From Acidobacteriota bacterium (GTDB taxonomy: Bacteria > Acidobacteriota > Vicinamibacteria > Vicinamibacterales > CAVVIG01): DNA of 40,573 nucleotides. The notes under the pieces were generated by a model that was not told the origin of the DNA, did no database searches, and was given only the letters and a program-made list of their open reading frames with translations. The DNA lies in NCBI GenBank assembly GCA_003222535.1, contig QHWJ01000368.1:1-40573 (forward strand). Reading direction: 5' to 3'. Below, piece by piece: positions 21,625 through 23,901 of this stretch; positions within the stretch are counted from its first letter, which is position 1, and each line of letters starts with the position of its first letter. A program made the position numbers and the translations under genes.

Positions 21625-22953
21625 CTACCTTCCGAGACGGCCAACCAGGACGGCGCCAGCCACGACCAGCGCCGGCCAGATGCCATAGAACACGGCCGCA
21701 GCGCCTTTGGGCGGCACGGCGAGCGGATGCCCTCGGAAAATCGCGTCCTCGCTCTCCAGCGGCGGCTTGACGCCCGCGAGCGCGTAAATTGTTTCGAGGA
21801 CGCCTTCCGCGGTCGTCACCCGGCTCATCTCCCGGCGGCCGCCGAGCTCGTACCAGATTTCACCGTAGTGCGGCGCATTCTGCTCGAACAGACCGATCGA
21901 CGTCGCCGACACGTACTGGACCTGGACCTTCGGCAGGACACGCCGCAGCTTCGCGATCGCGCGGTGTTCGAGATCCGCACGTCGAGGATCCTCCGGGGCC
22001 AGGTGCGCCTCGATGCGCAACGGCGCTCGAATGCGCGCGAGCGCGACTTCGTCGGCCTCCGGGAACGAGTTGATGCGGCTCTCCGATGTGTCCCAGCTCG
22101 GCGTCGCAAACGCGCAGCTGAAGACGACGGCCGCGGTGAGCGCGCCCAGTGCAATCGACTCGTGAACGCGGCGCCGCACCGCGACGCCAAGCCGAAGCCA
22201 CACGGCCGCGAGCGCGAGGCCCGCCAGCACGAGCGTCAGCGCGATGAGCACGACATCGAGCCGGATGAGGCCATGCTGGAACCCGGCGATCATCGCCGGC
22301 GGCGTGTAGCCGGCGACGCGCTCCCAGACGCCGCCCTGCACCGCGGCGATGAAGTTGACGATCCACGTGCCGACGGTGACGCTGAGCGTCAGGATCGCGG
22401 CCGTCGAGGGATGCTCGGTGAGCGCGGCGGCGGCCGCCGCGAGCGCGATGGTGAGGCCCGCGTTGAGCAGATGGCCGAACGCCACGGCCGCGAGCTCCGG
22501 AGGGTAGATGCTGCCGCCATAGCTCTTCCAGAGCAGGACCGCGGCGGCCGGGGCCGTCGACGCCACGATCCAACCGCCCAACAGCACCAGCGCTTTCGCC
22601 CCGACGCGCGTGAAGGCCGACATCGGGTGCTGCAACTCGATCTTCAGCGCCCCGCTTTGTCGATCGCCGGACACGAGACGGATGCCGACAAACGGCAGCA
22701 GAAACACGGCGGCGACCTCGCAGGCGCTGAACGTCGGCGCCCAGACGCCGATGAGCGGAGAAAACGCCTCGCCAACGCCCGCGCTGGTGCCGTTGAGGCC
22801 GCTGGCCTCGGCGTAGGTGCGGACCGCGCTGATGAAGGTGACGCCAACGAGCGGACCCATGGCCAGGAGCATGACCCACCACGCACGCGAGGCGACGAGC
22901 TCGCGATACTCTTTCTTCAGCAACCACACGTAAGGTCTCACGGCGGCGCTCAT
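21625..22953 (-). CDS. ABC-2 type transporter permease
   Basis: 442 residues. It starts with a cytoplasmic helix typical of ABC-2 permeases (WLLKKEYRELVASRAWWVM). About six hydrophobic segments follow, with FVGIRLVSGDRQSGALKIEL between early helices, a pattern of export permeases of the GldF/NatB type. A soluble stretch of ~110 residues (~290-400) precedes a last C-terminal helix. The matching ATPase is encoded upstream on the same strand, 231 bp away, with the gap filled by hairpins. Start ATG 22953 lies within the stem of the first hairpin. The substrate is unknown. Confidence 0.82.
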   Translation of the reverse strand: MSAAVRPYVWLLKKEYRELVASRAWWVMLLAMGPLVGVTFISAVRTYAEASGLNGTSAGVGEAFSPLIGVWAPTFSACEVAAVFLLPFVGIRLVSGDRQSGALKIELQHPMSAFTRVGAKALVLLGGWIVASTAPAAAVLLWKSYGGSIYPPELAAVAFGHLLNAGLTIALAAAAAALTEHPSTAAILTLSVTVGTWIVNFIAAVQGGVWERVAGYTPPAMIAGFQHGLIRLDVVLIALTLVLAGLALAAVWLRLGVAVRRRVHESIALGALTAAVVFSCAFATPSWDTSESRINSFPEADEVALARIRAPLRIEAHLAPEDPRRADLEHRAIAKLRRVLPKVQVQYVSATSIGLFEQNAPHYGEIWYELGGRREMSRVTTAEGVLETIYALAGVKPPLESEDAIFRGHPLAVPPKGAAAVFYGIWPALVVAGAVLVGRLGR

Positions 22954-23106
22954 CCTTCGACGGGCTCAGGATGAGCGGTCATGGTTTGCCTGTCGAACCA
23001 TGGGCAGTGGTCTCACTTCGGCCGGTGGGCAGACAAATCCGCTCGTCCTGAGCTTGTCGAAGGACGAGCCGTGGGATGCTCGTGGTTCGACAGGCTCACC
23101 ACGAGC
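22948..23106. repeat. Four hairpins with conserved loop and variable stems
   Basis: Stems: 22948-22956/22968-22976 (GCTCATCCT), 22980-22986/22996-23002 (CATGGTT), 23041-23049/23061-23069 (GCTCGTCCT), 23078-23086/23098-23106 (GCTCGTGGT). All are fully complementary. Loops are TCGACGGGCTC, TGCCTGTCG, GAGCTTGTCGA and TCGACAGGCTC; they are one motif read on either strand. It fills the gap between permease and ATPase genes. Confidence 0.9.
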
Positions 23107-23184
23107 GTGGGAACCGATATCGGCGCGCAGCAAACTAGACTGCTACCGAACCATGCGTTCTCCGCGTTCTCCGCGGTTCCTGTC

Positions 23185-23901
23185 TTACGTGAGCGCAAGG
23201 AAGACCTCTTCGAGATCGTCACTGGCGACGGCCGAGCCGGCGCGCGCCGCCGCCAGCGCCGCAAGCTCATGGATCCGGCCTTCCCCGCGCGCACGTCCGC
23301 CGCTCAGCAGCACGAACCGATCGCAGACGCGGGCCGCGTCTCTGATTTGATGAATCGACAGGAACATCGTCCGGCCCGCGGAGGCGTACGACCGCAGGGT
23401 CCCGGCGACGTCGCGGCTCTGGCGCAGGTCGAGGCCGTCGAACGGCTCGTCGGCCATCAGCACCGGGTGCGGCATGAGCAGGCCGATGGCAAGCAGCGCA
23501 CGCTTGCGCTGTCCCTTCGAGAGAGCGCCGATGGTCGTGTCGAGCAGCGGCGCGATATCCAGGCGGTCGACGACCTCGCCTCGCAGGGACGTGCGGCCGT
23601 CGAAGAAGCCCAGGGTGAAATCGAGCGCCCAGCGGACCGATTGGGAGGGCCACGGCACGATCGCGTCCGGGAGGTAGAACAGGATGGATGCGCGCTCCCG
23701 GGCGCTGAACGGCCGGCCATCCCGCATGAGCGAGCCGGCGTCGAGCGGCAGCACGCCGCCGAGACACTCGAACAACGTGGTCTTGCCTGAGCCGTTCGGG
23801 CCGATGAGGCCGAGCACTTCGCCCTGGAAAACAGAGAAGGAGACGTCGCCGAGCGCGATCAGCCCTCCGTAGCGCTTGGTGAGACCAATGGCCTGGAGCA
23901 A
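23185..23901 (-). CDS. ABC transporter ATP-binding protein
   Basis: 238 residues with Walker A GPNGSGKT (K40), a slightly unusual signature LSKGQRKR instead of LSGGQ, Walker B VLMADEPFDGLDL and the switch histidine in FLSIHQIRD. It energises the permease encoded next. The start is TTG 23901 by alignment with the family N-terminus (LQAIGLTKRYGGL); no good ribosome site is visible, so the start is uncertain. It ends just before the hairpin cluster. Confidence 0.93.
   Translation of the reverse strand: MLQAIGLTKRYGGLIALGDVSFSVFQGEVLGLIGPNGSGKTTLFECLGGVLPLDAGSLMRDGRPFSARERASILFYLPDAIVPWPSQSVRWALDFTLGFFDGRTSLRGEVVDRLDIAPLLDTTIGALSKGQRKRALLAIGLLMPHPVLMADEPFDGLDLRQSRDVAGTLRSYASAGRTMFLSIHQIRDAARVCDRFVLLSGGRARGEGRIHELAALAAARAGSAVASDDLEEVFLALT

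Follow-up and report, generated by a model that had tools for sequence, protein, structure and literature searches.

Nested REP-like dimers in an Acidobacteriota genome belong to a repeat family found across bacterial phyla

We conclude that four tandem hairpins in an Acidobacteriota genome are two inverted pairs, one nested in the other: an older pair, H1-H2, has been split by a 145-bp MITE that bears a second pair, H3-H4. The repeat from which both pairs are built is found across phyla, and we read it as a REP-like family that is not of the RAYT kind. We think it probable, with moderate confidence, that the nested dimers represent a dispersed family of non-autonomous DNA, served by templated repair and by a putative enzyme, other than a RAYT, that would read the core.

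Results

The window, the whole stretch of 40,573 nucleotides analysed here, is contig C106 of an 8.06-Mb draft genome (G000) in 450 contigs. An earlier note on this DNA had reported four hairpins at 22948-23106, three with stems of 9 bp and one of 7 bp, and we found them there (Table 1). H1, H3 and H4 have perfect 9-bp arms around an 11-nt loop; H2 pairs over 7 bp only, and its core carries two changes (TTCGACAGGCAAA). The loop proposed in the note, TCGACRGGCTC, is exact in H1 and H4, but H3 has TCGACAAGCTC and H2 is altered, and TCGACRRGCTC is the better consensus. Nor are the stems entirely different, as had been claimed: GCTCATCCT of H1 and GCTCGTCCT of H3 differ at one of nine positions, and the stem of H4 is GCTCGTGGT. 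Folded as DNA, 22940-23120 reaches -54.1 kcal/mol, compared with -32.6 +/- 3.1 for 200 shuffles (z -6.85). Because the longest-frame ATG of the permease gene (21625-22953) falls within H1, the start of that gene is doubtful; the true start may be further in, and the annotated one may be an artefact of the insertion.

Table 1. Positions of the hairpins, the MITE and the flanking genes in the window
Feature	Position	Strand	Remarks
ABC-2-like permease gene, downstream	21625..22953	-	weak Pfam match, below curated cut-off
H1, CC-type hairpin GCTCATCCT-TCGACGGGCTC-AGGATGAGC	22948..22976	+	core 22956-22968
H2, GG-type partner of H1, decayed core TTCGACAGGCAAA	22980..23002	-	core 22985-22997
H2 arms, 7 bp	22980-22986 and 22996-23002		
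Left 8-bp target-site duplication GAACCATG	22995..23002	.	
MITE, 145 bp	23003..23147	.	
Left inverted end of MITE, GGCAGTGGTCTCACTT	23003..23018	+	
H3, CC-type hairpin in MITE	23041..23069	-	core 23049-23061
H4, GG-type hairpin in MITE	23078..23106	+	core 23086-23098
Right inverted end of MITE, GGTAGCAGTCTAGTTT on minus strand	23132..23147	-	
Right 8-bp target-site duplication GAACCATG	23148..23155	.	
ABC transporter ATPase gene, upstream	23185..23901	-	

Two features of the locus were absent from the earlier note: an 8-bp target duplication, whose left copy is the right arm of H2, and a 145-bp element, of which H3-H4 form the middle. Three further copies of this element, on contigs C416, C80 and C439 of the same genome, match it at 96-97% over 144-145 bp. 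When the four copies were aligned, their ends were identical, their flanks unrelated and their lengths exactly 145 bp. They are flanked by the 8-mers GAACCATG/GAACCATG (in the window), AGCCGCTC/AGCCGCTC, CGCTATTC/CGCTGTTC and CACATTCA/CACGTTCA, two of these duplications being perfect and two having one change. Inverted repeats of about 16 bp (GGYAGNNGTCTMGYTT) form the ends, the left one of the window's copy having one change, and a fifth copy, on C48, retains the left part only. Identical inverted ends, unrelated flanks and repeated flanking 8-mers identify 23003-23147 as a MITE, present in several copies and containing no gene. Its insertion site was the right arm of H2, of which 8 bp were duplicated; removal of the MITE and one copy of the repeated 8 bp leaves H1 and H2 adjacent, like other convergent pairs of the genome. 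The alternation of strands, which had been said to fit an element copied by a structure-recognising enzyme or bound as RNA, is therefore that of two nested inverted pairs, and there is no four-unit element.

Like other MITEs of DDE transposons, the 145-bp carrier has inverted ends, an 8-bp target duplication and no gene, whereas the dimers show neither inverted ends nor target duplication. A search of the draft genome for an autonomous parent by the MITE ends gave eight end matches, seven in known copies and one at C342 that these copies do not explain, and did not find a parent transposon. Six other places have dimers that lack the MITE ends and match H3-H4 at 90-94%. Dimer copies in this genome also travel as MITE passengers, as this one MITE demonstrates. 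Relatives of the locus were sought in 27 family genomes using the two-gene stretch as query; seven (G238, G241, G242, G250, G252, G253 and G255) have both genes, at about 74-80% identity, and the region between the same two genes holds no such hairpins, dimer or MITE in any of the seven.

Other surroundings recur in this genome. Seven divergent doublets (L010, L013, L041, L053, L055, L068 and L290) are enclosed by a second common frame, which has ends like TAGTGTGGCGAGYTTGACG and is perhaps a further MITE with a TA target. Positions 23156-23180 of the window, like the surroundings of L026, L047, L050, L063 and L077, resemble CCGCAGAGCGC...GCGGTCTTTGCGTTC, where convergent doublets are often found and which looks like a further intergenic repeat.

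The core 13-mer, TTCGACRRGCTCA, occurs 229 times in the genome, as against 8 occurrences of a control read backward. Neighbouring cores at most 120 bp apart, counted at about 60 fetched sites out of the first 100 places among those listed, are inverted relative to each other in 38 cases and share a strand in 8. By their inner bases the stems are of two kinds, CC or GG, and 33 of the 38 inverted neighbours combine one of each; a same-kind pair occurs once, where 16.2 are expected. Compensatory variation is found mainly at stem pairs 1, 2 and 4 from the core, the remaining pairs being of one main type, with decay. The earlier suggestion of selection for structure and not for stem sequence thus stands as regards structure; its second half is too strong, since the two kinds are paired non-randomly. 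The same note had named loops no more conserved than stems as the outcome that would count against it. A search by stem alone, with the 13-nt middle left free, gave 146 stems in the genome (control, 4), and among the 50 distinct places listed from it the core, judged by eye, was exact in 40, had one or two changes in 9 and was unrelated in 1. Loops therefore stay conserved even when only stems are sought. Short palindromes in many copies, in inverted pairs and between genes make this a REP-like dispersed inverted dimer of the general kind.

We then asked how widely the repeat occurs. When one genome per species was scanned for a pair of cores that point apart across a gap of 8-38, we obtained at least 116 stretches, which come from fewer genomes than that (five, for example, from one Sphingomonas MAG). 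Carriers among the matches listed are Microbacterium, Plantibacter and Planctomonas in the Actinomycetota, Pedobacter and Mucilaginibacter in the Bacteroidota, sphingomonads, Burkholderiales and Moraxella in the Pseudomonadota, and Leptolinea in the Chloroflexota, together with SAR202, Treponema, Fibrobacteres and Neomarinimicrobiota (phyla taken from names). Since several carriers are isolates, the occurrence in so many phyla is not explained by errors of binning. In 39 core-bearing genomes, G000 and G116 among them, the core is present between 18 times (G208) and 604 times (Planctomonas), whereas the backward control occurs 0-8 times; counts of 100-600 per genome are reached in some Actinomycetota, Pseudomonadota, Fibrobacteres and Treponema, and counts of 550-600 in Plantibacter and Planctomonas, both Microbacteriaceae. 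The window's own phylum is mostly poor: 143 of 199 sampled genomes have any core, and only G000 (229), G116 (48) and G167 (26) are clearly rich.

A further 42 stretches came from viral contigs; some are regions of tail genes in which the repeat is present many times. On five phage contigs (L211, L216, L218, L227 and L230), core hairpins lie between most tail genes, far more densely than in host genomes, and their stems vary from one hairpin to the next. Three others (L205, L224 and L235) have near-identical doublets between tail-type genes, in a cluster that by eye resembles a gene transfer agent or prophage. Inspected by eye, the genes between repeated doublets in viral contigs were GTPase-like, tail or unassigned, and no common transposase was recognised among them. 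Dimers are also present in 39 plasmid records, mostly of Moraxella and Sphingobium, and the best place in all 39 has no annotated feature underneath. At the sensitivity used, E. coli genomes gave no match and 50,697 phage records no dimer, only partial matches of 21-26 nt in 17 of them; E. coli and these phages were rejected as carriers. Frames that read through the repeat (L203:4563-5369, L154:677-1066 and L235:4843-5940) yield stock peptides such as VRQAHHER, LSLSKH or LSLSKG, and peptides of this type are probably common false protein ends in databases.

Only the cores had been selected in the 116 doublets, so their flanks provide a fair test of structure. At flank positions 1-3, local pairing is found in 112, 109 and 109 doublets on the left and in 113, 110 and 108 on the right (93-97%, compared with 34-64% when shuffled). 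At positions 4-10 pairing runs across the doublet, in 102, 100, 106, 98, 96, 86 and 75 cases (65-91%, compared with 38-66%), and from position 11 outward it is at background. Three or four Watson-Crick types occur at each paired position, and departures at the local stem pairs are mostly not G-T. The layout of the dimer is outer arm, three-base stem, 13-nt core, three-base stem, linker and the mirror image of these. Eleven of the 13 core positions are constant, but stems and arms are replaced from one phylum to another: the outer arm is CGTTCG in 49 doublets, TTGTCA in 8, CGCTCA in 6 and something else in the others, and by clade it is CCGTTCG, TGTCA, CGGTC or CCGCTCG. The earlier observation of conserved loops with compensating stems was right, and it holds far beyond the locus.

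The two halves of a dimer tend to have opposite stem kinds, as judged by the middle base. Both halves have the same middle stem base in 23 of the 116 doublets, whereas 44.9 are expected, and a value so low was never reached in 10,000 shuffles; in the viral contigs the figure is 7 of 42, with 16.6 expected (P 0.0011). Stem position 1 trends the other way, and position 3 has a weak trend. Identical triplets in both halves of the 116 were not rarer than chance (11, with 14.2 expected; P 0.21). In 140 kb of Plantibacter and Planctomonas, hairpins with stems of at least 8 bp never had the core as their loop. Stretches of this genome, picked by contig number but passing over contigs with known cores, are no unselected sample and were left out of that comparison. 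The result speaks against the 9-bp picture of the earlier note as the general form of the repeat, local stems being short elsewhere; this genome has 9-bp stems because its outer arm also repeats inward.

As single-stranded DNA, all 116 doublets, and 16 of 18 from this genome, have as their computed minimum a single long hairpin in which core pairs with core and which is broken at the point where the two unlike stems face each other. An inverted build of two similar units is enough to explain why the outer arms cross-pair, but it explains neither the local pairing nor the unlike stems. The left arm in Sphingobium TYG74 is now the exact complement of the right arm, where sister strains keep the usual triplet, and this templated change implies that the long hairpins probably form in cells.

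Discussion

The nearest relatives of the repeat are the CGTC-tagged REPs, which the text of Di Nocera, De Gregorio and Rocco (2013; PMC3733652) describes as having stems of 8-9 bp, loops of 4-5 nt and a CCA tail. Going by that text, the two share palindromic units, head-to-head inverted dimers, unlike halves, occurrence in several phyla and the lack of an associated transposase. Copies of the Bacteroidota type even begin with TGTC followed by AT (TGTCAT), a variant of the tag that the same paper states, but neither CGTC nor its variants TGTC and CCTC, followed by AT, are present in the CCGTTCG and CCGCTCG copies. Unlike CGTC REPs as described there, the repeat has an 11-nt loop, a near-fixed 13-nt core, local stems mostly of 3 bp (up to 9 bp in this genome), no linker-side CCA consensus and, in most copies, other outer arms. 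Many GTAG and CGTC dimers also have unlike halves, for which the paper's text suggests evasion of SbcCD; such evasion would fit the unlike halves of our repeat too, and would be the ordinary explanation. GTAG REPs, BIMEs and REPINs with RAYTs resemble the repeat in forming inverted palindrome pairs between genes, with two alternating subtypes, but the repeat has neither the GTAG tag nor a RAYT association. The Rickettsia palindromic elements and Neisseria dRS3, grouped with the CGTC units in the text of PMC3733652, are likewise short dispersed palindromes but differ in core and loop length.

Where sister strains have the repeat, Sphingobium TYG46 has a CGTC-like dimer whose 13-nt core is TGAACTTGGTTCA. 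This core agrees with TGAGCTTGTCGAA at 8 of 13 letters, which may be a hint, no more, of a common origin of the two core types. Before a small hypothetical gene on Sphingobium chromids (L353-L359), a CGTC-type dimer, GTCATCCCAGC...GCTGGCATGACG, is found in four strains and not in three, a possible gain or loss for the CGTC family. In the literature searched the 13-mer TTCGACRRGCTCA was not described on either strand: TCC/TTC variants of the core and degenerate forms matched three unrelated papers only, 11-mers and arm-plus-core strings matched only primers and unrelated text among the matches listed, and peptide strings matched nothing. The repeat thus has no description in the literature searched and is probably set apart from the CGTC units, to go by their description in the text, consensus figures aside.

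How might such a family spread? We propose that the dimers move as non-autonomous DNA. When the strands separate, a dimer could fold into one long hairpin with paired cores or into two small ones that present the cores as loops, and a putative widespread enzyme, not a RAYT, would read the core and copy or move the unit. Two processes would keep the stems paired: recognition of the core in its hairpin, and repair in which one arm of the hairpin is the template for the other. The long hairpin, not the pair of small ones, is the energy minimum, which leaves recognition of the loop a conjecture. We infer a reader of the core because evasion of SbcCD and template switching leave the fixed core unexplained. 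No mobilising enzyme was found among the Y1_Tnp matches, the genes between viral doublets and the MITE ends examined. Nor was a fresh insertion of a bare dimer caught on Moraxella osloensis plasmids or Sphingobium chromids, which gave old, shared or decayed copies; a 133-bp insertion in strain MM15 contains half an element and does not count as a clear example.

A dedicated enzyme might be dispensable if a founder had spread by horizontal transfer and as MITE cargo, with quasipalindrome correction (intrastrand template switching at replication forks) pairing the stems in the absence of selection. The MITE-borne H3-H4, the second repeated frame around other doublets of this genome and the templated arm in TYG74 all speak for such processes, as does the explanation already offered in the text of PMC3733652 for the unlike halves of REP dimers. 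These processes alone, however, account neither for the constancy of 11 of 13 core positions amid stems and arms that change from phylum to phylum nor for the 550-600 cores of Microbacteriaceae genomes, and we regard this explanation as unlikely. Improbable, in our judgement, is an RNA element, whether a transcription terminator, an mRNA stabiliser or a processing site. The mostly intergenic position and the compensatory stems are what such an element would show, but the non-G-T stem departures in the 116 doublets argue against it, and the window has no Rfam match. Genes around 35 scorable intergenic sites are co-directional in 25 cases, convergent in 5 and divergent in 5, which equals the background of 92, 16 and 19; these numbers rest on crude gene calls at 60 sites, of which 21 were called within ORFs and 4 had no neighbour. 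Terminator-like placement was rejected on this comparison, and the earlier idea of an element bound as RNA found no sign of an RNA role.

That the repeats are classical REPs or REPINs of the GTAG type, mobilised by a RAYT, seems to us very improbable. Palindromic units, inverted dimers, 100-600 copies and intergenic location would all suit it, yet no GTAG tag or consensus bounds the dimer in the 116 doublets. Y1_Tnp matches occur in 22 of the 39 core-bearing genomes and are lacking in 17, and 9 of the 14 genomes with at least 100 cores (G000, G199, G200, G201, G206, G214, G219, G220, G221, G226, G227, G228, G230 and G235) have none. Where such genes exist they are rarely near a core: among 30 Y1_Tnp loci fetched from those listed, one had an intact core no further than about 1.5 kb away, and at one there was a near match. 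A RAYT is expected to be flanked by its own repeats. The only Y1_Tnp gene of this genome (L078/L001, at G000:C216:39994-40323) is flanked by a different palindrome, similar to GTCCGGCTTCAGCCGGACC. A RAYT was rejected as the mobiliser for want of association with the cores, and the RAYT/REP link that the earlier note had suggested is not supported. Very improbable too is a binding site for a host protein, or a signal resembling those for DNA uptake, with a common reader protein. The core, almost fixed across phyla, would be consistent with such a site; the very uneven distribution is not, only three of the 199 phylum genomes having at least 26 cores, nor are the absence of matches in E. coli and the merely partial ones in phage records.

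We therefore return to the non-autonomous family with a putative core-reading enzyme. A bolder version of it, which we offer tentatively and think rather doubtful, is that the TTCGACARGCTCA dimers would make up a third superfamily among the tagged palindromic repeats, perhaps one that branched off from the CGTC repeats. They would be actively copied in many phyla by a putative non-RAYT enzyme that would read the core as the loop of folded single-stranded DNA and require a left and a right end formed by two unlike hairpins.

Overall, a near-fixed 13-nt core is common to Actinomycetota, Bacteroidota, Pseudomonadota, Chloroflexota, Spirochaetes and others, while its surroundings vary and go on pairing. 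A core fixed across phyla within surroundings that are free to change demands a common reader or a common process of spreading; for the CGTC repeats, the text of PMC3733652 indicates that neither is known. The pairing map gives the element sharp boundaries, and core-rich strains such as Plantibacter and Planctomonas are the place to hunt for the enzyme. Annotators are warned that open frames crossing these repeats give false peptides.
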